Positions 37,146 to 51,051 of a stretch of 64,000 nt of DNA are shown piece by piece. Numbering within the stretch: position 1 is the first letter of the stretch; every line of letters starts with the position of its first letter. The position numbers and the translations under genes were made by a program. A model generated the notes under the pieces. It was not told the origin of the DNA, did not search any database, and saw only the letters and a program-made list of their open reading frames with translations. The DNA comes from Thermoplasmata archaeon (GTDB lineage Archaea > Thermoplasmatota > Thermoplasmata > Lutacidiplasmatales > UBA184): NCBI GenBank assembly GCA_022750155.1, contig JAKIWG010000006.1, positions 1-64,000 on the forward strand, in the 5' to 3' direction.

Positions 37146-39959
37146 TCAAGGAACCTCGATTCGCCCCGAGGGGGTTCCATCGTGGGCCGCCTCTGAACGA
37201 TCCGAAGCCCCGCCCGGTGCGGATTCGGGACCGGCGTGACCGCCGAGGCTCCCCGTGATTGGACGCGCCCATGGGGTGGTCGGCGGGGGGCTCTTCCCCG
37301 ACCGCTTCCGCCCCAGGGGCCCGAAGACGAACCATGCCACCGCCACCCCGACGACCAGGCCGCCGGCCACCAGGAGAATCGACATTGTACTGATCCCTCC
37401 AGCCGAGGAGCCGCTCGTCGGGCTCTGTGCGTACACTATGGTCACCTGGACGGTCTGGCCCTGGACGTAGATCACTCCGGCCGCAACGACCGCCAGGTAG
37501 CCAGCCACTTTTCCCGCGAGGTAATTGTACGACCCATTCGGGAGGGCGGTGACGACGGAGCTCCCCAACCCTCCGAACACCGTCGAACCGAGGACGATAG
37601 ACCACTGGGTCCCCACGGCGAGCCCATACTCGGTGAAGGTGACCGGGAACAGAAACGCCGTGAACAGAACCAGGATTGTGATGTTGGTCCTTTCGTCCAG
37701 ATACGGGCCCGCCGCGGGCTCGGCGACGGTGTACCCGGCCACGGTAGGGATCCGGAACTGATAGGTCGCACCCGGGCCGTTCGCTTGGGGAATCACGATG
37801 GTCAAAGCGGGCGAGGTGAAGGTCTGGCCGTTGAGTACTACGGACCACGGGAAGTTGTGGAGGCCGCTCGCAGTGAACGTGAGGGTGTAGCCGAACCACA
37901 GGGTGGTCAGCGGATATCGGTCGATGTTCGAGGCGTTGATCTCAAGGGGGCTGTCCACGAGGCCGTCTGGGTTCGGCCAGACCTGGCCCGGACCCGAGTA
38001 GAGGTCGGGACCCGTGTGATTCCCCCAGTAATTCCCCCCTTCGGGGTAGCCGGCGTCCCAATGGACCACTTGCGCCGAAGGAGGATTCGACCATCCCGCA
38101 TCCCCTACGAAGTTGTTGTGGTACACCCAGACTCCGCTGTTGCCATCGACCATGAAGCCTACCTGGTCGTCGTAAAACCAGTTGCCAGCCGCGGTCGTGT
38201 TGACATCGTCGACGAGCCTCAGTCCCATGGTCGAAAGCGAGCCGTTGTTGTTCAGTAGCTGGAGGTCCGTGCAGTTCGAAATGGCAAGCGCGTCCCCGAC
38301 ATGGGTGGCATTGTTCTGATCGATGACACTCGCAGACACGAAGGTAGCGAGGATCCCGGTCCCGTTCGCCTGCTGGGTGAATCCCCCGGGATTGTACTGA
38401 ACGGTGAGGCCGGAGGAGTGATTGAGCAGCAACCCCACGTTGCCCGCGTGGTCGATGGTGTTGTTCTCGACCACTGCCGAGTTCACCCCAGAGAGGTTGA
38501 CCGCCGAGTAGCCTGCGCGGGAGTCGAGGTTGAACTCGAACACCAGGTTCTGCGTTGAATCGGCCTCGATCCCCGCATGGTCCGCACCGGACACGTTGTT
38601 GTTTTCGACGGTGGCCTGGCTATCGTCAGATAGCCAGACGGCCGCGGGGAGGCCGGCCGAACCAGAGAAATCGTTGTAGGTCACCCTGAGGGTGGAACTG
38701 AGGGCGTCCTGGAACGCAACGGAATCCCCTCGCGCCGCGTTTCCCTCCACGCGGACGTTCCGGTCGCTGCACATCGATAGGGCCGACGAGGAGGTTCGGT
38801 TTCCATTCAACAATAGGTTCGACTGCACGGTGACGTTCGACGAGAACCCAACCCAGGTCGCCACCGAACGGAAAGAAGAGAGGTTGTTCGAGGCCACCAC
38901 CAGGTTCGTGGTGTTCCCGACCATGACCGCGTGCTGAGCCCCGGTGAACTGACTGGACGTCAGGCTGACGTTGAGGTCGTGTTCGAGATATGCGCCGGTG
39001 GTGAATCCGGAAAAGGTCTCCGAGGTGAACGTCGCCCCCGTGGTGCCGAGGATGGCTATCCCCTCGATTCCCCCGCTGCCGGTGTTCAGCGATCCGGAGA
39101 CGGTGTTCCCATTTTCGACGTGTATGGCCATCTGGCTCAGCGTCAGCGTGTTCGATCGGACGAACGAGAAGGAAACACCCTTCTCAACAATCCCGTGACC
39201 AGTCGAGGACAGTTCGTTGGCTATCAGGTTCACATGGTCTGACCGGAGCACCTCGACCCCCACCGCTGAACCGTTCGCCTGATTCCCCGTGATAGACACC
39301 ACAGAGGAATCGACTATCCCTATCGCGTTCCCGCTCGAGTTGGAAAGCACATTGTTGAGGACGCTGACATTGACGTCACCGCCATAGGTGGTCCCGTTCA
39401 TGCCGGAGCCTGTATTCCCCACCACGCTGAGGTTGACGGAGTCCTCGGCGTCGACGGACCACCCGGCTCCAGTGAGATGATTTCCGGTTACGACCGCCCC
39501 CTGCACCGCCTCGAGTAGGATTCCTGTGGTGGTGGATTCGACGGAGAGGTTCTCGACGACGAGCCGATCGACGTTGAACCCGATGAAGGCCGCATCCGTG
39601 CCATTGACTTGGGTCAGTGTCATTCCATTCCCGTTGAGCACGCTACCGTTCCGTTCGTCGAGTATGGACCCTGTGAACGACGCGGTCAGAGTGTAGGTAT
39701 GACCCGCTACCTGAATCGGTGCGGAGGCGTTGCTCACATTGCCGTCCGGCAGAATGATCGTCCCGTAGGTCGAAGGATGAATCACGGGCTCGGAGGAAAG
39801 CGCACGGGGCCCCGGGGGGTCGGGACCTTGCGGCGATGTGACGACTCGCAGGGGCTGAAAAGGGGCTGAACCGGACGGGACTTTCGTCCAGGTGTGACCG
39901 ATCCCTCCCAACGCCAGGGAGGCAAGGATGAGGGCGACCACAATCGTCGGGGGTCGCAT
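37146..39959 (-). CDS. NosD-like right-handed parallel beta-helix surface protein with C-terminal TM
   Basis: Many ~22-residue repeats such as 'NTISGS..NN.VT.NNL'; periplasmic copper-binding/NosD-type repeats; C-terminal TM ISTMSILLVAGGLVVGVAVAWFVFG. Confidence 0.88.
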   Translation of the reverse strand: MRPPTIVVALILASLALGGIGHTWTKVPSGSAPFQPLRVVTSPQGPDPPGPRALSSEPVIHPSTYGTIILPDGNVSNASAPIQVAGHTYTLTASFTGSILDERNGSVLNGNGMTLTQVNGTDAAFIGFNVDRLVVENLSVESTTTGILLEAVQGAVVTGNHLTGAGWSVDAEDSVNLSVVGNTGSGMNGTTYGGDVNVSVLNNVLSNSSGNAIGIVDSSVVSITGNQANGSAVGVEVLRSDHVNLIANELSSTGHGIVEKGVSFSFVRSNTLTLSQMAIHVENGNTVSGSLNTGSGGIEGIAILGTTGATFTSETFSGFTTGAYLEHDLNVSLTSSQFTGAQHAVMVGNTTNLVVASNNLSSFRSVATWVGFSSNVTVQSNLLLNGNRTSSSALSMCSDRNVRVEGNAARGDSVAFQDALSSTLRVTYNDFSGSAGLPAAVWLSDDSQATVENNNVSGADHAGIEADSTQNLVFEFNLDSRAGYSAVNLSGVNSAVVENNTIDHAGNVGLLLNHSSGLTVQYNPGGFTQQANGTGILATFVSASVIDQNNATHVGDALAISNCTDLQLLNNNGSLSTMGLRLVDDVNTTAAGNWFYDDQVGFMVDGNSGVWVYHNNFVGDAGWSNPPSAQVVHWDAGYPEGGNYWGNHTGPDLYSGPGQVWPNPDGLVDSPLEINASNIDRYPLTTLWFGYTLTFTASGLHNFPWSVVLNGQTFTSPALTIVIPQANGPGATYQFRIPTVAGYTVAEPAAGPYLDERTNITILVLFTAFLFPVTFTEYGLAVGTQWSIVLGSTVFGGLGSSVVTALPNGSYNYLAGKVAGYLAVVAAGVIYVQGQTVQVTIVYAQSPTSGSSAGGISTMSILLVAGGLVVGVAVAWFVFGPLGRKRSGKSPPPTTPWARPITGSLGGHAGPESAPGGASDRSEAAHDGTPSGRIEVP

Positions 39960-40208: not shown

Positions 40209-41249
40209 TTGTTCCGGCTCCCGGGGAGCCTCGTGGAAGGACGGAAACTGCAACTGGCCGGCGGCTCGACCTACGTGGTCTCGCTGCCCAAGAGGTGGGT
40301 CACGAACGCTGGGCTGAAGGCCGGCGACACGCTCTTCCTGGAGACCCCCGCCGACGGTGCAGTGGTGGTCCGGCATCACGTCGTAGACAAACCCGCGGTC
40401 CGCCGGAAGGTTTTCCACGAGAAGGGGGAGGAGGCACGGGAACACCTGCTCCGCAAGCTGATTGGTGCGTACGTTTCCGGGTTCGGCCTCATCGAGGTCC
40501 GCTTCCCCTCCGAGCGGGGGCCTTTCGTCCGCCGCGTGGCGAGAGAGTTCTGCCGACTCGTGATCGGCCCGGAAGTGATCGAGGAAAGCCGGGGCAGCCT
40601 GGTCATCCAGGACCTCTCCGACGCCACCGAGCTCAGCGCCGAGAAGTGCCTCCGGCGGATGCACCTCACCGTTCGAGCCATGCTGGAGGACGCCATCCTG
40701 GCTCTCAAGACGTCCACCTCGGCCCTCGCCCATGACGTCGCCCAACGCGACCAGGACGTGGACCGACTGTACTGGATGGTCGCCAAGCAGTACCACCTGA
40801 CCCAGACCTCTTCCAACGCCGGGGCGGATCGGTCCGCCTACCTGGCCGGCCACAGCTATCGGTTGGTGGCGAAGCTACTGGAACGGATCGGCGATCATGC
40901 CGAGCGAATCGCCGGCACCTTCTCCATACTCACGACCGGCAAGGCGATCGATCCGAAGCTGACCAAGGACCTCGATGAAGCCACGGCGTCTGCCGTCGCG
41001 ATTCTCGACAAGGCGTTCACGGCGTTGCTTCAGGGCGACGTCGACGGTGCCAACGATGCCATCGACGATCGGGCTGAACACCAACGGCTGATCGATGCCC
41101 TCTCCCACCGGGTGGCCACCCGCAAGGGCGAGGAGCTCCTCGCACTCGGCACCGTGGTGGACAGCCTCGGCCGAACCGCCAGCTATGCGGCCGACATCGC
41201 CGAGCAGGCGATCGATCTCGCGGTTCTCATGACCCCGGAAGCGGGCTGA
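40209..41249 (+). CDS. phoU: Phosphate uptake regulator: AbrB-like N-terminus plus PhoU domains
   Basis: TTG start; RKLQLAGGSTYVVSLPKRWVTNAGLKAGDTLFL (AbrB) then PhoU helices with RLVAKLLERIGDHAERIA. Confidence 0.88.
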   Translation: MFRLPGSLVEGRKLQLAGGSTYVVSLPKRWVTNAGLKAGDTLFLETPADGAVVVRHHVVDKPAVRRKVFHEKGEEAREHLLRKLIGAYVSGFGLIEVRFPSERGPFVRRVAREFCRLVIGPEVIEESRGSLVIQDLSDATELSAEKCLRRMHLTVRAMLEDAILALKTSTSALAHDVAQRDQDVDRLYWMVAKQYHLTQTSSNAGADRSAYLAGHSYRLVAKLLERIGDHAERIAGTFSILTTGKAIDPKLTKDLDEATASAVAILDKAFTALLQGDVDGANDAIDDRAEHQRLIDALSHRVATRKGEELLALGTVVDSLGRTASYAADIAEQAIDLAVLMTPEAG

Positions 41250-41291
41250 ACGGAATCCTCCGTCCTGTCGAAAGCGCCAGGGACCGGTGGG

Positions 41292-42377
41292 CTATCCATC
41301 GGATTCGGCCGTGGTACCGGTTGAGCCTCTGGCGGATGTCGGGGACTGGGACGTCCGGCGGAGGAAGGAGCGTCGGGCGGGCGGAGGCGTCGAGGCCGGC
41401 CCGGGAGCGGTCCCCCCAGAGGTCGGCACCATGTTTTCCTCGGTCCCCTCGCCCGAGGGACGCTCGGACTTGCGCGCGGCAAGCGCCGACCTGACGATCT
41501 CCCCGTCGACGCGATAGGCGCGGTGTTCCACCCCGTATTCGATCGACAGGTCCGCGATCTCAAGAATTCGGCGCGGATTCCCTCCCGCGGCCTCGGCGAT
41601 GATCGCGACCGCTTCTTTGTCGAATGGATAGAGCGGGTCGATCTCCTCGACCACTCGCTTGCCGAGCAGCTTCTTAGCGAGGAGCAGGGCCGCCTCATCG
41701 GCGGTCATTTTCGGCACGAAGAACGTCCGGTTGATCCTCGAGGCCAGCGCAGGCCGGTTCTTGATGATCCAATCGAGGTACCCCTGATAGCAGCCGAACA
41801 TCACGAGCACACCGGGCTTGATCGAGTCGAACACCTCTTGGAGAGTTTTCCCGAATGCATCGAGCTCCGGTGTCTTCGACAGGTTATGGAGGTCGTTGAG
41901 CAGGAGAACCGCCGGTGCGTTCTCATTGAGAGCCAGTCCGATGGTCTTGCCGGCCTGAATCGGGTCGTACTTCTCGTCGGAAACCTTCTGCAGCGCGGTA
42001 ACCTCTCGAAACCAAGCCGGATAGCTGAACCCCTTGGGAACCCCCGCGAGCTTGGCAGCCTTCAGTATCTCGCCCGCGAGCCCCCGAAGGATCCAGTTGG
42101 TCTGAGAGGTCACGTCGAAGTAGACTGTGAACGTCTTTCTCTCGCGCGCCTCAGCGGCCGTGAGGAGGAGGCGCTCGGTCTTCCCTGTCCCGTGGGAACC
42201 GACGATGGCGACGACCACCCGATTCTCCCGCTCCCAGATCTCGTCGCGGATTGCCTGCAGGTTCTGGTCGATGTCCAGATTGACATGATACACGCCGATG
42301 TCCTGGAGGCTCTCGCTAGCCAATTCCCGAAACGGGTTGCTGGTGAGGCCGTATCGTTCGAAGGTCGAGATCGGCAT
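41292..42377 (-). CDS. AAA ATPase (ExeA/Orc-like), part of pilus locus
   Basis: FERYGLTSNPFRELASE...VVVAIVGSHGTGKTERLLL...AVLLLNDLHNL; start at internal ATG (MPISTFER). Confidence 0.85.
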   Translation of the reverse strand: MPISTFERYGLTSNPFRELASESLQDIGVYHVNLDIDQNLQAIRDEIWERENRVVVAIVGSHGTGKTERLLLTAAEARERKTFTVYFDVTSQTNWILRGLAGEILKAAKLAGVPKGFSYPAWFREVTALQKVSDEKYDPIQAGKTIGLALNENAPAVLLLNDLHNLSKTPELDAFGKTLQEVFDSIKPGVLVMFGCYQGYLDWIIKNRPALASRINRTFFVPKMTADEAALLLAKKLLGKRVVEEIDPLYPFDKEAVAIIAEAAGGNPRRILEIADLSIEYGVEHRAYRVDGEIVRSALAARKSERPSGEGTEENMVPTSGGTAPGPASTPPPARRSFLRRTSQSPTSARGSTGTTAESDG

Positions 42378-42391
42378 GGAACGACCGTGGG

Positions 42392-43021
42392 TCAGAGGAC
42401 CCGCCTCCGGAGGTCGATGGCCAGCCGCTTGCCATCGAACTCGTAGTAGATGTTGCGGTCGATGAACTTTCCGTCCATCCACTTCGGGATGCGCAAGTAC
42501 CTCACAATCCCCTCCGGCCCCTCCTTGCTATGGAACTGGATAACGCCGTCGGCGAGGTGCATGGCGACGGCCTCGGATTGGGCCTCGAACATGCCCCGGT
42601 CCGTGGCCAATACGATCGTAGTTCGCTTCTCGTGGCAGAGCGCGCGAAGGCGGCGAACGAGGGCCGCGAAGCTAGGCCCGGGCAGTTCAAGGGTGAGGAA
42701 GGAGAACGAATCGACGGCCAATAGACCCCCATTCGCCCCGAACTCTCCCAGATTGTCGAGTGCGTCCCGCTCAAAGATCTCGAGCTTGGGTTCTCCCCAC
42801 GGGTCGAGCTTCCCCTCCGTCACCAGGAGTTGCTGCAACTCCTCCCGGTCCCTGGAGATCACGAATGTAACGGGATGCTCCTGCCGTAGGGCGGCGAGAG
42901 CCAACTTGCGCACGAAAAAACTCTTTGCTCCGTCGGCCCCGGACTCGATGACCACAAGACGCGCGTCGGCAAGCTCAGGAATGATGGTGTCGAGGCCGGG
43001 AACCTCGACGGGAATCCCCAT
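42392..43021 (-). CDS. KaiC/FlaH(ArlH)-like protein with degenerate Walker A
   Basis: RecA-like fold sequence; ESGADGAKSFF in place of GxxGxGKS/T; Walker B-like GGLLAVDSFSFL; adjacent to pilus genes. Confidence 0.75.
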   Translation of the reverse strand: MGIPVEVPGLDTIIPELADARLVVIESGADGAKSFFVRKLALAALRQEHPVTFVISRDREELQQLLVTEGKLDPWGEPKLEIFERDALDNLGEFGANGGLLAVDSFSFLTLELPGPSFAALVRRLRALCHEKRTTIVLATDRGMFEAQSEAVAMHLADGVIQFHSKEGPEGIVRYLRIPKWMDGKFIDRNIYYEFDGKRLAIDLRRRVL

Positions 43022-43139
43022 GCGGCGCGGAAGGGTGCATGGCCCATAAGGCTGGCATCGGTAATGTATGAGTCTCCCCGGGTATCTACGCAAACTATGG
43101 TGGGGAGCTACTTTTACTCACCGAGCCCGTGGTTCGGCC

Positions 43140-43949
43140 ATGTCCAAGTTTCGTCACGATTCCCGGGCCCTATCAGAAATCGTGGGGTCCCTCATGCTCG
43201 TCCTCATCGTGGTCGTTGCCGCCACCGCGTTAGCGGTGTTCGTTCAGAGCTACCAGAAGAACCTGCAGGCGGAGCAGGCATTGGCCCAAGCGAAGAGTTT
43301 GGAGTCGTTGAAGGTCCTCCGAGTGGCCCCAACCGAAAACGGGACGAACGGAACGTGGGCGACCCTGAATTTCACCGTCGCGAGCCTGTACGTGAACCCG
43401 TCGACGATCACCGGAGTGAGCATCAACAACATGCCCGTCAGGAACTTCACCGCGCTCCACCTCAACCTGGCCTCTGGGAACTGGACCGCGGAGGTCGTCG
43501 CGGCGGGGGGGCAGTTGACGCTCTACCCCAGGGAACAGGTCTACCTCCAGGTCGACGGGCAGGGCGGGAACCTCTCGTCGTTCTACTCCCAGTCGTTGAG
43601 AGTGCCCATCTCGGCGTCGATCAGCGTCCAGATCCTCACGGCTTACCAGAATGTCTTCTCGGGGTTGTTCATCCCCCCGACGGCGATCGCTCTCGTCCAG
43701 ACGCTCCAGACCTGGAACTCGAGCGCCATGAGCTACAACCAGACCCCCCTGCTCGATGGAAGCAATTCATTCCAGCCAGGAAATGGGACGATTGTCGCGT
43801 GGTCTTGGAACATCACGCCGGGGAATATTCTTCTGTTCGGTGAGAAACAGGTGGCGCGGATGTTGAATTCGGTGACACACTACACTATCCGGTTGACGGT
43901 AACGAACGCCGAGGGGCTACAGGGCATCGACTCGATCAGGTATGTCTGA
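43140..43949 (+). CDS. Archaeal type IV pilin-like protein
   Basis: RALSEIVGSLMLVLIVVVAATALAVFVQSYQ: class III-type signal/pilin N-terminus. Confidence 0.85.
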   Translation: MSKFRHDSRALSEIVGSLMLVLIVVVAATALAVFVQSYQKNLQAEQALAQAKSLESLKVLRVAPTENGTNGTWATLNFTVASLYVNPSTITGVSINNMPVRNFTALHLNLASGNWTAEVVAAGGQLTLYPREQVYLQVDGQGGNLSSFYSQSLRVPISASISVQILTAYQNVFSGLFIPPTAIALVQTLQTWNSSAMSYNQTPLLDGSNSFQPGNGTIVAWSWNITPGNILLFGEKQVARMLNSVTHYTIRLTVTNAEGLQGIDSIRYV

Positions 43950-44033
43950 CGGCAACCTTTCCCGAAGCGGGTTCAGCCATCACTGGGACCGCCGACCTGG
44001 CCGGACTGGCGCTTTCACAGGAGCCGCCGGACC

Positions 44034-45470
44034 CTAGCCGGGGAACACGACCGCGAACGAAATCGCAGTGGCGGCCATCAGGGCGAGGGAGTGCAGAAGG
44101 CCGTAGCGCGCCTTACCTTCCGTGAAGGCTCCGATGATTACCCCGGTTCCCATCGAATTGATGAGCATCAGGTCGAAGAACCGCTGCTTCAGGGCCGCCG
44201 GACTCAGTCGGGGGACACTTGCCGCCGAAACCCCGCCGGAGCCGGACGCGCCGGCACTATTGAGCGGGTTTCCGTTGAGGAAGCTGATGTTGATCGACCC
44301 GAGCGTGGGAGCGATGAACAACAAGGAAAAGAGCACTGCCATCAGGACGCCGAAGGCGATGTACAACACGGCCACGGGCAATACGAGTTGGTTGTTGCGC
44401 TCGATCTCGATCTTGATGAAGTCGTCCATGTCCTTGGCCGCGCGGTAGACGACGACGGAGGTTTCGCCTCCCACCGCCGAGGCATCCGAAATCAACCCTG
44501 CGTATCGGTTGATGAGGGCGCTTCGCATCGGAGTCACCATCGTCTGCAGGACCACGTCGAAGGGGCGCCCCATCCGGATCCCATCCGCGGCGATCCGCAG
44601 GTCCTTGCGCATGATGTTCCCGCTGGTCTTCGCGAGCTCTACGATGCACTTCGCCGGGTCGATCCCGCCCCGCATGGCGTCGGCCATCTCGAACAGGAAC
44701 TGGGCGAATGCACGCTCGTACGTACGTCGTCGACGTTTTTCCCGACGGGCGTCCATGGCGAACGCCAGAAGCCCGATGAAGAGCCCGATGATGACCACGT
44801 ACTCAGGGGCGAGCAGCGGCTCGCCGGGTGTTCCGGTGACGAAGATCAGACCGATCATGACAAAGACGAACGCCGCCACGGCGGGGATGTAGAGTACGAT
44901 GTACTCCTTCTGGATCGGGTGCGTCGCGAAATACTTGTGGAACGTGAACCGGCGGGTTCGCTTCAGGTAGAGCACGTAGCCCCCCGCGGCCGCCGCCACG
45001 ACGGCCGCTCCCACCCCGATTTCGAGCAGGAGTGCCCGGCTGTTGAGGACGACGAACGGGTTCGGCGGGGGGACCGTCGTATTGATGGTGAAACCCCAGG
45101 AGTACTCCGCGTGGTTTCCGGCGGAGTCGGTCACGTCGACGGTGACGGTGTGGTTTCCCGGCTGGAGCTTGAGGACCGCCGGGGGGGTGTAGCTGATCTC
45201 GCTCGCGGTGATCACCGTGCCCTCGATGTTCGTCACATCGAGCCCATCTACGATCATGGTCACTCCGACGGGAAAGATGCGGCCGGCGCTGTCGGTGTAC
45301 GTCGCCGAGATGTTGGGGGTCTGGGTGTGCGAAATGGCTGCCGGCGCCGGGTTCACCGGAGTGATGATGATCGGGCCTGCCGCTGCGCGCGCACCCTGGG
45401 CATTTTGTCCGGCGAGGAGCAGGATGATGAGAAGGGCGAGGAGCAGCCAGGACCTTGCCATGGGATTCAC
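44034..45470 (-). CDS. TadC/FlaJ-type pilus platform protein with N-terminal extracellular Ig-like domain
   Basis: T2SSF-like EMADAMRGGIDPAKCIVELAKTSGNIMRKDLR...GLISDASAVGGETSVVVYRAAKDM; N-terminal NPAPAAISHTQTPNISATYTD...VDVTDSAGNHAEYSWGF. Confidence 0.85.
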   Translation of the reverse strand: MNPMARSWLLLALLIILLLAGQNAQGARAAAGPIIITPVNPAPAAISHTQTPNISATYTDSAGRIFPVGVTMIVDGLDVTNIEGTVITASEISYTPPAVLKLQPGNHTVTVDVTDSAGNHAEYSWGFTINTTVPPPNPFVVLNSRALLLEIGVGAAVVAAAAGGYVLYLKRTRRFTFHKYFATHPIQKEYIVLYIPAVAAFVFVMIGLIFVTGTPGEPLLAPEYVVIIGLFIGLLAFAMDARREKRRRRTYERAFAQFLFEMADAMRGGIDPAKCIVELAKTSGNIMRKDLRIAADGIRMGRPFDVVLQTMVTPMRSALINRYAGLISDASAVGGETSVVVYRAAKDMDDFIKIEIERNNQLVLPVAVLYIAFGVLMAVLFSLLFIAPTLGSINISFLNGNPLNSAGASGSGGVSAASVPRLSPAALKQRFFDLMLINSMGTGVIIGAFTEGKARYGLLHSLALMAATAISFAVVFPG

Positions 45471-46429
45471 TCCGCGCGGGCGTATGCCATCGAAATCAGG
45501 ATCGTCGTCATCCCCACCGAAAGTGGGACCAGTCCGAAGGTCAGCAGCAGAAGGAGGGCATTGGCGTCCAAGCCCCCCACGGTGCTGCCGAAGGCATCGA
45601 TGAGGAACGCCCCGACCGCGATCATGAGCACGCCGATCAGGACGAGACTCGAGTACATGTCGACGTACGTCTGAAGGCGCTCGATGAACTCCTTCTGGAC
45701 CGAACGCTTGAGCTTCAGGACGTCGTCCGACTTGTTCCGAAGGTACTCGTCCAGGTTGCCCCCCTGGTGGATCATGTTCCCGAGATCCCAGAACGACTCC
45801 CGGAGCGATTCGGACGGCGACTCCTTCGCGGTTTCGGCCAAGGCCGTGATGAGATCCTTCCCCTGAATGTCGGTCTTGTAGACGATCTTCTGGAACTCAG
45901 CGGTCATTGCCGGGTCGTGGTCCCTGCGGGCCATCCTGCGGACCAGCTCGATAGGGGACATGCCCGTGCTGGCCATGACCGAGAGTTCGCTCAACGTGAA
46001 CGGGAGTTCGCGCTCTAGCTGACCCTTGCGATTCGATACCCGCGTCCCCACGAGGCTCTGAAAGCCTCCCACGACGGCGACGGCGGTGAGCCCGGTAATC
46101 CCGCCCACATACTCGTACCAGGCCGGTGACGGCACGAGCAGGAGGAAAAGAGGAACGGTCACCGCCGCCGTGACCGCGACCGCAATGAGCGTGGTGACGA
46201 GCAGTACGGAACGATGCATCCCCGGAGTGGCGTGGACGCCGGCCTGTCGAAGTCGGTCCGCGAGGATCTCCGCATCCTCACCCCGGTCGAATCGTTCGCC
46301 GAGATGGCGATAGCAGAAGGCGCGGTACCTCCGCAGGAACCGTTCCTGGGCGGTCGAAGGGGCCTCACCACCGAGGCCGACGGCCTTCCCTTCCTTCGCC
46401 GATACCGAAGTGCGCCTGAAGATGTTCAT
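45467..46429 (-). CDS. TadB/FlaJ-type pilus platform protein
   Basis: ELPFTLSELSVMASTGMSPIELVRRMARR...LGNMIHQGGNLDEYLRNKSDDVLKLKRSVQKEFIERLQTY; ATGA overlap with ATPase gene. Confidence 0.87.
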   Translation of the reverse strand: MNIFRRTSVSAKEGKAVGLGGEAPSTAQERFLRRYRAFCYRHLGERFDRGEDAEILADRLRQAGVHATPGMHRSVLLVTTLIAVAVTAAVTVPLFLLLVPSPAWYEYVGGITGLTAVAVVGGFQSLVGTRVSNRKGQLERELPFTLSELSVMASTGMSPIELVRRMARRDHDPAMTAEFQKIVYKTDIQGKDLITALAETAKESPSESLRESFWDLGNMIHQGGNLDEYLRNKSDDVLKLKRSVQKEFIERLQTYVDMYSSLVLIGVLMIAVGAFLIDAFGSTVGGLDANALLLLLTFGLVPLSVGMTTILISMAYARAE

Positions 46430-48234
46430 CGACCGAGCGCCTGATTCTCCAGCTGGCGAAGGGCACCACTCGGATCGACGTAGTACTGAGCGATCGCGCG
46501 GCTGACGTCCTTGTAGTAGGTCATGTTGAGGCGGCTCATCAACTCCAGATAGGTCGCTTTGCGGCGAACCTCTGCATCGAGGGAATCGAGGTCCTTTCCT
46601 GTCAACTGGGCGATCTTCTCCAGGACGAAGCTTCGCCCCAGGTAGGTCATCGTGTCTTCGGAGGGGGCCCAACGGAACACCTCGTTCGTGAGCAGCTCGT
46701 TGGTCACCGCATCCACTTCCAGAACCTCGGTGATGCTCATCAGTCGGCGAACGCGAGCATTCTTGACCGCCACCTGGGCAGGGAACGCCACGGTGTCAAG
46801 GGCCTGGAAGAGGACCCGAGGGATGTTCATCGGCTCGTTCTCGATCCGGTGGAGGAGCTCCGCGATGGAACCGGCGTGGATCGTAGACATCGAGGCGTGA
46901 CCCACCGAGATCGCCTGGAAGAGCGTGAACGACTCCGCCCCCCGGACCTCCCCGACGATCACATACTCCGGTCTCTGCCTCAGCGCGGCGACTAGCAAGT
47001 CGAAGAGTGTGACGCTCCCCATCGCCTTGGCCCCGCCGCCGGAGATTCCTGACGCTCCGCCGGAGATTCCCGAGGCCGCACCGCTCGACATCCCGTAACC
47101 GGTCCGCGCAACCGACTGGATCCAGTTCTGATGGTCGATGTGGATTTCCGGTGTGTCTTCGATGGAGACTATCTTGTCCTCGGGCCGGATGAACATGCTG
47201 ATGGCGTTGAGCAATGTCGTCTTGCCGCTTGCCGTTCCCCCGGAGATGAGGATCGACCGGTGGTGCTCGACCAAGGTCCAGAAGTAGGCGAGCTCGAGAG
47301 CGGAAGCCGAGCCAAAACGCAGGAGATCGATGGGAGAGACCGGGTCGTAGGAGAACTTACGAATGCTGAACGTCGAGCCTTTTCGCGTCACCTCCGTTCC
47401 GAGGGTCAGGTTGATCCTGCTGCCATCGCGGAGCGTGGCATCGAGGATCGGCTGGTAGATCGAGATGTGCTTCCCCGAAATCTGTGCCAGTCGGAAGATG
47501 TACTTGTTCAGCTCCAGATCGCCGGTGAAGTTCACGTTGGTCTTTACGGAGCCAAAGACGCGGTGGAACACGTAGAGGGGCGTGGCTGGACCGAGGCAGC
47601 TGATGTCCTCCAAGAACGGATCGCGTAACACCGCGTCCGTCCTCCCCAGGCCGACGAACTCCCGCTGGAGGTAGTACAATAGCACGGGCCGGCGCTTTTC
47701 CGAAACGTCGATATCATAGAGATCCAGTGCTGCGAGGAACCGCCCCCTGAGGTAGGCCCGCAACTCCGGGGATTGCTCTAGGCTCTGCCCCTCGGTCACC
47801 GGAAGCTCCTCCTGGGCCATCAGCGCCTCCATCTTGTCGCGGATCCGGCCGATCGTCTCGAACTCTTGCCCCTTCAACGTCGGCTCGAGGACGCTGTATT
47901 GGAACTCGCCGTCCCGCTCATTGAAGACGATATGGACGAACGCGTAGGGGGGGTTCACCGGGTAGGTGATGTCGACCGCCCGGCGGTCGGTGACCAGCTG
48001 TTTTCGCATGTATCCCAACTCCGCCTGGACGAGCATCTTGTCGGCGACCACGTTTTTCTTGACGAAGAGGGAGTCCAATGCGGCCGATTCCCGGCGGCGG
48101 GTCGCCAAGTCCTTCGGCTTGAACTTCGAGAGGTCTACGCGCGGACGTGGGGGAAGGTTTCGGTCCCGCGTATCCGCGCTGGACGTGGAGGGTGCCCCTA
48201 CCGAATTCATCGGCAACACCACTCTGCTCCCCAA
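46426..48234 (-). CDS. Type IV pilus/archaellum-type secretion ATPase (TadA/FlaI/GspE family)
   Basis: ILISGGTASGKTTLLNAISMFIRPEDKIVSIEDTPEIHI...LVAALRQRPEYVIVGEVRGAESFTLFQAISVGHASMSTIHAGS. Confidence 0.95.
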   Translation of the reverse strand: MGSRVVLPMNSVGAPSTSSADTRDRNLPPRPRVDLSKFKPKDLATRRRESAALDSLFVKKNVVADKMLVQAELGYMRKQLVTDRRAVDITYPVNPPYAFVHIVFNERDGEFQYSVLEPTLKGQEFETIGRIRDKMEALMAQEELPVTEGQSLEQSPELRAYLRGRFLAALDLYDIDVSEKRRPVLLYYLQREFVGLGRTDAVLRDPFLEDISCLGPATPLYVFHRVFGSVKTNVNFTGDLELNKYIFRLAQISGKHISIYQPILDATLRDGSRINLTLGTEVTRKGSTFSIRKFSYDPVSPIDLLRFGSASALELAYFWTLVEHHRSILISGGTASGKTTLLNAISMFIRPEDKIVSIEDTPEIHIDHQNWIQSVARTGYGMSSGAASGISGGASGISGGGAKAMGSVTLFDLLVAALRQRPEYVIVGEVRGAESFTLFQAISVGHASMSTIHAGSIAELLHRIENEPMNIPRVLFQALDTVAFPAQVAVKNARVRRLMSITEVLEVDAVTNELLTNEVFRWAPSEDTMTYLGRSFVLEKIAQLTGKDLDSLDAEVRRKATYLELMSRLNMTYYKDVSRAIAQYYVDPSGALRQLENQALGR

Positions 48235-48444: not shown

Positions 48445-49662
48445 ATGAAGGCGAGAGAGATTAGCCGACAGACAAAGCGCCGGAACTTCCGGAAGCTTCA
48501 CCAGAAGACGGAAGCTGTTTCCCCGGTGGTCGCAACGTTGATCCTGATCCTCGTTGCGGTCGCCGCGGCAGCGGCCCTGTATCTCTGGTTGAGCGGGTGG
48601 CAGGCCGGCATCACCAAGGGAATCGGTTCGCCGAACGCGCAGTACAGCATTACGATTGGCGGCAGCACGACGGTCTACCCCTTTGACCAGACCATCGTGC
48701 CTTGGTTCGAGCAGAACAACTCGAACGTCGTCGTTTCGGACAACCCCGGGGGCTCGGGCGCGGGCATCCTCGCGGTCTGCGCTGGCCAGGTTGACATCGG
48801 AGCGGCGTCCCGAGCGATCACCGCGACCGACATTGCTGCGTGCCCGGCACTGCAGAACGCAGTCCAGACGCGCATTGGCATCGCTGCCATCGTCTCGATT
48901 GTGTCGAAGACCAACACTGTGGGCTTCACGGCCGCTTCCGCCATGGCGCAGAGGGAACTCGCATCCATCTGGCAGACCAACGGTGGCGGGAACCTCAACC
49001 TCGCCGGAATCCCGGTCGCTGGCGGCAGCTACGGACTGAAGGCGGGGGCCCCCTCGGGAACCGCCACGTGCCCGAACGGCGTCGGACCCTGCTACCTCTG
49101 GTCGGACGTTGCCACGAACTACGGAGCCGTCAACTGCGAGGGCCTCGTTGTCACGGCCTGCACGTTCTCGGCCTCGGCAAGCCCGATCCACCTGTGGGAC
49201 CGCGCTGACAACAGCGGAACCGAAGCGAACTTCGCGGGCAAGCTGCTCGGCCAGGGCAAGTGCGGATCGGATCAGCAGGTCCAGAGCTGCGGTATCATCA
49301 CCAGCAACTCCGGCGGCGGATCTGCCACCGGCAACCCGGCGGTCACGGCGGCGGTCGCGGCGGACCCCGTCGGACTCGGGTTCACCGACATCGGTCAGAT
49401 CGGAACCAGCACCTTCGCGCTCGGCTTCGAGAACAACAGCCAGGCGGCTCCGGTCTTCGCGACCACCACGACTATCAAGCTGGCAGCGAACGGCCCGATC
49501 GCCGCGCCCTATGCGGGCGCGTACGGCGGCTGGACCCCCCTGGAGTACATCACGATTGGACCAGCGACCGGAGAAATCCAGCGCTTCATCCAGTTCGCGA
49601 TGGACCCCAATGTGAACCAGCTCGCGACCGCCTCTAACGGGTACATCAGCGTCTACGCGTAG
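48445..49662 (+). CDS. Archaeal pilin N-terminal domain fused to PstS-like phosphate-binding domain
   Basis: TEAVSPVVATLILILVAVAAAAALYLWLSGW (pilin) followed by ITIGGSTTVYPFDQTIVPWFEQ, DNPGGSGAGILAVCAGQVDIGAASRAI, WDRADNSGTEANF (PstS motifs). Confidence 0.9.
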   Translation: MKAREISRQTKRRNFRKLHQKTEAVSPVVATLILILVAVAAAAALYLWLSGWQAGITKGIGSPNAQYSITIGGSTTVYPFDQTIVPWFEQNNSNVVVSDNPGGSGAGILAVCAGQVDIGAASRAITATDIAACPALQNAVQTRIGIAAIVSIVSKTNTVGFTAASAMAQRELASIWQTNGGGNLNLAGIPVAGGSYGLKAGAPSGTATCPNGVGPCYLWSDVATNYGAVNCEGLVVTACTFSASASPIHLWDRADNSGTEANFAGKLLGQGKCGSDQQVQSCGIITSNSGGGSATGNPAVTAAVAADPVGLGFTDIGQIGTSTFALGFENNSQAAPVFATTTTIKLAANGPIAAPYAGAYGGWTPLEYITIGPATGEIQRFIQFAMDPNVNQLATASNGYISVYA

Positions 49663-50199: not shown

Positions 50200-51051
50200 A
50201 TGCAGCGAACTTACCCCAGAGAACCGCGAGCGGGTCGAGACGCCGTCAAGCCCGGGCGTTGGGTCTCGGCCACGAGCACCACCGCCTTCGCCGTGACGCT
50301 CCTTCTGCTGGTCGCGCCCGCGACGCTGGGCGCCCACGCCGTGGTCCTGACCGCCCCGTATTCCGGGGCGAAGACCACCTCCTCCGAATCCTTGTCGGTT
50401 TCCGGCTGCGCGCACGCCGGGGTCCCCACGAGGGGCTACTTCCACGGGAGCACCGGGATCGGGGGTCTGCGGGTCTGGAGCACGTCGCAGAGTTGCTCGG
50501 CGGGCTACGGGTACGGGTCGACCTCCTCGACCTCGTTCATCTCCACGGTCCCCGTCACGCTGGCCCACTCGAAGGCCACCGTGGTCGCCGTCGTCCTGCT
50601 GCGGGCATGGGTGGCCGCCCACCTGACGCCCGGGACGTGCACGACGGGAAGCGGGAACTATTCGTCCTGCTCCGAGAGCGCGTATGCGAGCCTCTACGGG
50701 TACGTCTACCTGGCTGACATGACGAGCGGGGCGACGTGGTACCCCGCCAACTACCTCCTCGGCACCGCGCAGAGCATTTACCAGGGCTACTACTGCTACC
50801 TCGGAAACTGTTCGAGCTACACGAGCAACTACACCGTGCCGTTCCAGACGAGCTCCTCGACCTCCCTGACGATCAACGTCACGGGAGCCACGACGACCGA
50901 CAGTTTCGCCCTCGTCGTCGACTTCAGCAGCTACGCGGACTCGTACGTGAGCGCGTACGGCGCCACGCTCTCCGGTGCCAAGGCGTCGGCCACCGTCAAC
51001 GCGGCATCCTCCGGAGAGCACATCGACCTCGCGTCGATCACAATATCCTGA
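50200..51051 (+). CDS. Secreted protein, unknown function
   Basis: Signal-like TTAFAVTLLLLVAPATLGAHA; Ser/Thr/Tyr-rich ectodomain. Confidence 0.7.
   Translation: MQRTYPREPRAGRDAVKPGRWVSATSTTAFAVTLLLLVAPATLGAHAVVLTAPYSGAKTTSSESLSVSGCAHAGVPTRGYFHGSTGIGGLRVWSTSQSCSAGYGYGSTSSTSFISTVPVTLAHSKATVVAVVLLRAWVAAHLTPGTCTTGSGNYSSCSESAYASLYGYVYLADMTSGATWYPANYLLGTAQSIYQGYYCYLGNCSSYTSNYTVPFQTSSSTSLTINVTGATTTDSFALVVDFSSYADSYVSAYGATLSGAKASATVNAASSGEHIDLASITIS

Follow-up and report, generated by a model that had tools for sequence, protein, structure and literature searches.

A pilin-PstS fusion gene paired with its own type IV pilus-type ATPase in Thermoplasmata, and its genetic links to phosphate uptake

The window analysed here is a stretch of 64,000 nucleotides from a Thermoplasmata archaeon (positions 1 to 64,000 of contig JAKIWG010000006.1, GenBank assembly GCA_022750155.1). 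On its forward strand, at 48445..49662, a single open reading frame with no internal stop encodes a protein of 405 amino acids that begins as a pilin and continues as a PstS-type protein. Residues 1-24 (48445..48516, +) form a positively charged class III (prepilin) signal peptide, recognised by TIGR02537. A hydrophobic pilin helix, highly conserved among 21 fusions, follows at residues 25-52 (48517..48600, +), and a PstS-type domain, predicted to bind phosphate, occupies residues 67-405 (48643..49659, +), as shown by PF12849 and by alignments. The archaellin/pilin N-terminus model TIGR02537 scored 33.2 bits (cut-off 20); Pfam Pilin_N reached 17.4 bits, under its cut-off of 25.2. The charged N-region, the SP motif and the hydrophobic helix are together those of an archaeal type IV pilin, and prepilin cleavage is predicted, on the analogy of archaeal prepilins, after Ala24 (KTEA/VSPVVATL).

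The head of the protein has, by sequence, the type II fold of periplasmic binding proteins. PF12849 (PBP_like_2) matched residues 64-387 with 80.7 bits (cut-off 27), and TIGR02136, the PstS family model, gave a clear match of 81 bits that is under its strict cut-off of 206.6; the head is thus related to the curated PstS set of that model but lies outside it. Its top matches in the PDB are PstS proteins (best profile match to a solved PstS 5.7e-24), and the pilin segment matches Iho670. An AlphaFold model computed with the window and its orthologue as input had a pLDDT of 32, too low to be of use.

An orthologue 74% identical over the full length of the fusion was found at locus L037 (contig JABCYU010000096.1, Euryarchaeota MAG). 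When 400 genomes belonging to this archaeal class were searched by profile, the number of genomes with a fusion rose to 28, namely the window, the L037 orthologue and 26 others; within the 400, the fusion is present in three genera of the window's family and in two further families (represented by G396 and G389). Since the fusion recurs in this way, an artefact of assembly or reading frame, or chance, was ruled out as its source. The intact frame, the two models over their cut-offs and the orthologue bear out the continuity of pilin N-terminus and PstS domain proposed in the first-pass annotation.

The same annotation had called for a comparison of phosphate-contact residues. The side-chain ligands of E. 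coli PstS, T10, S38, D56, R135, S139 and T141, are identical in the fusion at five of the six positions: T10, S38, R135, S139 and T141 align with T75, S104, R253, S257 and T259. The exception is D56, which is replaced by Ser122; this serine and the five aligned residues are the predicted ligands of the fusion. This substitution could point to another ligand, for example a different oxyanion, in some or all of the fusions, and so could the divergent sequences, the insertions of about 50-150 amino acids in most other fusions and the loss of Arg123, beside the ligand loop, in most relatives. Arg123 is kept in the window, in the L037 orthologue and in G396; it is Lys in G389 and Ser, Phe, Thr or Ala in most of the others. 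However, the S122-R123 motif is also the S-R of the solved PstS proteins 4h1x, 1twy and 4gd5, so that Ser122 appears to be a trait of another PstS subclass and no ligand loss. Given this motif, the five retained ligands and the linkage to PhoU and pst genes described below, we consider a ligand other than phosphate very improbable. On these comparisons of ligands, Arg123 and insertions, phosphate specificity is likely for the window fusion; for the longer forms it is more doubtful.

The fusion gene is divergent from a block of type IV pilus (T4P) genes at 40209-48234 of the window. Nearest to it is a T4P/archaellum-type assembly ATPase (46426..48234, -), assigned by PF00437 (117.5 bits) and by a tree. 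Two platform membrane proteins follow: one of T2SSF/TadB/ArlJ-like type (45467..46432, -; PF00482, 49.2 bits), listed as an open reading frame of 45467-46672 whose start is likely to be near 46432, and a second with an N-terminal Ig-like domain (44034..45470, -; PF00482, 40.6 bits, and a weak Big_13 match). A second pilin-like protein (43068..43949, +) has a SEIVGSLMLVLIVV N-terminus, with PF07790 at 26.1 bits (cut-off 25.2) and TIGR02537 above its cut-off, and a PKD-like C-terminus with a weak match. Then come a KaiC-like ATPase (42392..43093, -; PF06745, 28.0 bits, cut-off 26.6) and an AAA protein (41292..42482, -), which is under the cut-off of PF13401 and, as synteny shows, is conserved in the block. 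At the far end is an AbrB/MazE-PhoU regulator of phosphate-signalling type (40209..41249, +; PF01895, 76 bits; PF04014, 31 bits), which scored 77.5 bits with TIGR02135, under that model's cut-off.

Gene order in the block is maintained in relatives, most of the genes being 50-75% identical. The L037 orthologue adjoins the same type of ATPase, 92% identical to that of the window. With the ArlI model NF058587 the window ATPase scored 392 bits, under the cut-off of 550, and no archaellin gene was seen in the block. An archaeal prepilin peptidase is encoded elsewhere in the window assembly, on contig C51 (PF06847, 32.2 bits, cut-off 29.9). The divergent promoter showed no sign of a common operator: of 21 such regions, at most seven contained any one 9-mer.

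Several neighbouring genes were recorded besides. Downstream of the fusion, 50200-51051 (+) encodes a secreted-looking protein of 283 amino acids without a Pfam match; neighbours 70% and 36% identical to it are found in L037 and L125, respectively, and it perhaps belongs to the system in some species. Adjoining the PhoU gene at 37146-39959 (-) is a NosD/beta-helix surface protein of 937 amino acids, homologues of which adjoin the block in L040, L055 and L119. Elsewhere in the window assembly, about 27 kb from the block, contig C38 carries a second AbrB-PhoU-like protein (L137, 6825-7811), 39% identical to that of the block, and contig C43 (L139) carries a tandem pair of T4P-type ATPases, the usual pair in the class, with about 40% identity to that of the window.

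The fusion and the block ATPase are found together almost throughout. In 24 genomes, wherever the contig permits, the fusion stands head to head with an ATPase of the same clade; in G025 the two are about 10 kb apart. Among 81 genomes in which a close ATPase was defined as one with 60% identity or more to that of the window, 14 had both fusion and close ATPase, three the fusion only, one the ATPase only and 63 neither (Fisher p 5e-12, a rough guide, as related genomes are not independent). The three lone fusions are all on contigs shorter than 5.5 kb, and the lone ATPase is a fragment at a contig edge. All remaining ATPases in these genomes are at most 47% identical to the window's. In a tree of 39 ATPases all 21 neighbours of fusions form one clade (support 100/100, branch 3.36), which spans three families of the class. 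The fusion and its ATPase clade are thus almost inseparable, and this dedicated clade and the conserved synteny strongly support the link to a T4P-type machine that had been suggested from the window. Two genomes have two pilin-PstS fusions each, G005 (contigs C146 and C107) and G223 (C15 and C9), and G005 also has two close ATPases.

Association with a machine does not in itself say whether the fusion is assembled. A pilin left unassembled is a membrane-anchored protein, an N-terminal helix also anchors the ordinary PstS of relatives, and other pilins exist in the genome; the class III helix might therefore just tether PstS to the membrane while the neighbouring pilus is made of those other pilins. 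The conservation of the helix speaks against this. Among 21 fusions its median pairwise identity is 96%; three sections of the PstS domain reach 61%, 37% and 48%, and the N-terminal anchors of ordinary PstS vary freely. Such conservation appears to exceed the needs of a plain anchor; it would be better accounted for if the helix packs into the core of a filament or is recognised by the machine, and it argues for assembly of the fusion by its own machine. The other, ordinary small pilins of the window assembly lie on a separate contig (C51) and have a different helix motif (VSPIIATILLVAITVV). With the near-inseparable ATPase clade added, a role of the helix as anchor only seems unlikely.

The genetic evidence for phosphate comes from the relatives. 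The first-pass annotation was correct that PstCAB genes are absent from the 64-kb window, but in 10 genomes pst genes flank the block. They are on the fusion side in G008, G010, G264, G389 and G396. The order in G010, G264 and G008 is fusion, ordinary PstS, PstC and PstA in the same direction, with PstB added in G008. In G012, G043, G030, G046 and G286 a PstS-C-A-B operon is found at the other end of the block, just past PhoU. After the fusion, G389 and G396 encode in the same direction a protein that joins PstC and PstA (TIGR02138 at 384 and 405 bits, TIGR00974 at 361 and 340 bits); genes for PhoU and PstB accompany it. In these two distant families the pilin-PstS fusion therefore sits in the pstS slot. 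We infer that adjacency to pst genes in 10 of about 28 genomes of about 1.8 Mb is far above chance. Together with the PhoU gene of the block, these operons strongly support the proposed connection of the fusion with phosphate. Some relatives, G010, G264 and G234 among them, also have an ordinary membrane-anchored PstS alongside their Pst permease, so the principal receptor may be a protein other than the fusion. The PstC-PstA proteins are single chains of 1071-1076 amino acids with about 490 additional N-terminal residues (L117, 10444-13656; L118, 4437-7664).

PstB was found in 27 of the 28 genomes with a fusion, the exception being the window's own (G000; GC about 67%, 2.1 Mb). In this assembly PstC gave weak general-permease matches only, and the best match to PstB, 1.3e-41 compared with 1e-96 or better in relatives, was taken to be another ABC protein. 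PiT and NptA gave no match in it, and it contains no second PBP_like_2 protein besides the fusion. The assembly is 93.7% complete, so that about 6% is missing, and the nearest of the other fusion genomes, G234, has a complete ordinary pst operon away from the block. An assembly gap or a recent loss is likely to explain the missing genes, because 27 of the 28 fusion genomes have PstB; a true loss of Pst in the window organism was not accepted, in view of the same genomes, the closest one included, and of the missing part of the assembly.

The missing permease would suit an adhesive or sensory pilus, whose heads bind surface mineral or organic phosphate or report phosphate and feed no transporter. 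The PKD domain on the second pilin of the block points the same way, as does the nearest solved pilin match, Iho670, which makes an adhesive filament (PMC4187195). Against it stand PstB in all but one of the fusion genomes, the pst genes adjoining the block in 10 of them and the fusion in the pstS slot in G389 and G396, and we regard such a pilus as improbable.

The reading that we favour, and hold to be rather probable, is that its own T4P-type machine assembles the fusion into a structure at the cell surface which captures phosphate for Pst. The archaeal prepilin peptidase of the genome would cut the cytoplasmic signal off the fusion, and the dedicated machine (the ATPase and two platform proteins) would take up the bared pilin helix. 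Many copies could then be built into an array close to the membrane, like a bindosome, or into a short pilus; in this surface structure the PstS heads would trap inorganic phosphate and pass it to the Pst ABC permease, the whole process presumably being under phosphate control linked to PhoU. Because phosphate must reach the permease in the membrane, we consider a long pilus less likely than a short or envelope-embedded, bindosome-like structure. A true extracellular filament made mostly of phosphate receptors, with its own T4P machine and PhoU control, is a possibility that we consider rather unlikely; if real, it would be a nutrient-scavenging pilus in which phosphate capture reaches past the cell surface. 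The 'phosphate bindosome or phosphate-capturing filament' envisaged from the window would be either of these, and synteny, the ATPase clade, PhoU and the adjoining pst genes now lend that idea genetic support.

PstS proteins of the usual kind are lipoproteins, are periplasmic or have a simple membrane anchor. The fusion shares with the PstS of Pst transporters the fold family, most of the predicted phosphate-contact residues and, in G389 and G396, the operon position; unlike them it has a prepilin-type N-terminus. Pseudomonas aeruginosa is reported to have PstS on surface appendages at low phosphate; neither a fusion to a pilin nor a T4P machine of its own is known to us there. Two proteins of the present set, L058 (1478-3229) and L130 (7936-9630), combine a PstS-like domain with a region resembling a NosD-type tail and have no pilin N-terminus; they would present a PstS-like head at the cell surface in another way.

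The closest functional parallel is the Sulfolobus solfataricus bindosome, in which binding proteins with class III signals are displayed by means of a T4P-type ATPase and a platform protein (PMC2910488, PMC4187195). Both systems have a receptor with a class III signal, a T4P-type machine and, presumably in the present case too, an ABC transporter as partner. The Bas system, described from S. solfataricus only, handles sugars with the BasEF machine and three small pilins, BasABC; the present one is euryarchaeal and has a PstS receptor whose gene is tied to those of a machine of its own and of PhoU. The BasE model gave 179.7 bits on the window ATPase (cut-off 1000) and the BasF model 17.8 (cut-off 1300); since both are far under their cut-offs, the Bas bindosome is a functional analogue, and the window system is no homologous member of it. 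The Iho670 fibre of Ignicoccus hospitalis is a filament built from one large T4P-type pilin of 33 kDa (PMC4187195). Its pilin helix matches that of the fusion, but it is adhesive and its head is no substrate-binding protein.

As class III-signal binding proteins occur in both crenarchaeotes and euryarchaeotes (PMC4187195), one fused receptor taken alone has precedents. The novelty lies in the use of PstS as receptor, in an ATPase clade exclusive to it and in the surrounding phosphate genes. A census of archaeal T4P (PMC4858521) mentions neither phosphate nor PstS, and no report of PstS combined with a class III signal peptide was found in the literature searched. The bindosome idea has so far concerned one organism and sugars; here, in a different archaeal lineage, a probable counterpart for phosphate is tied to its own machine by synteny across three families and adjoins genes for transport and regulation. 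The recurrent pairing of fusion and machine, often next to phosphate transporter genes, makes it probable that these cells capture phosphate by means of pilus-type machinery. These high-GC archaea probably live in acidic, phosphate-poor soils. With a soluble, assayable ligand, the question of nutrient uptake by way of archaeal pili becomes directly testable.
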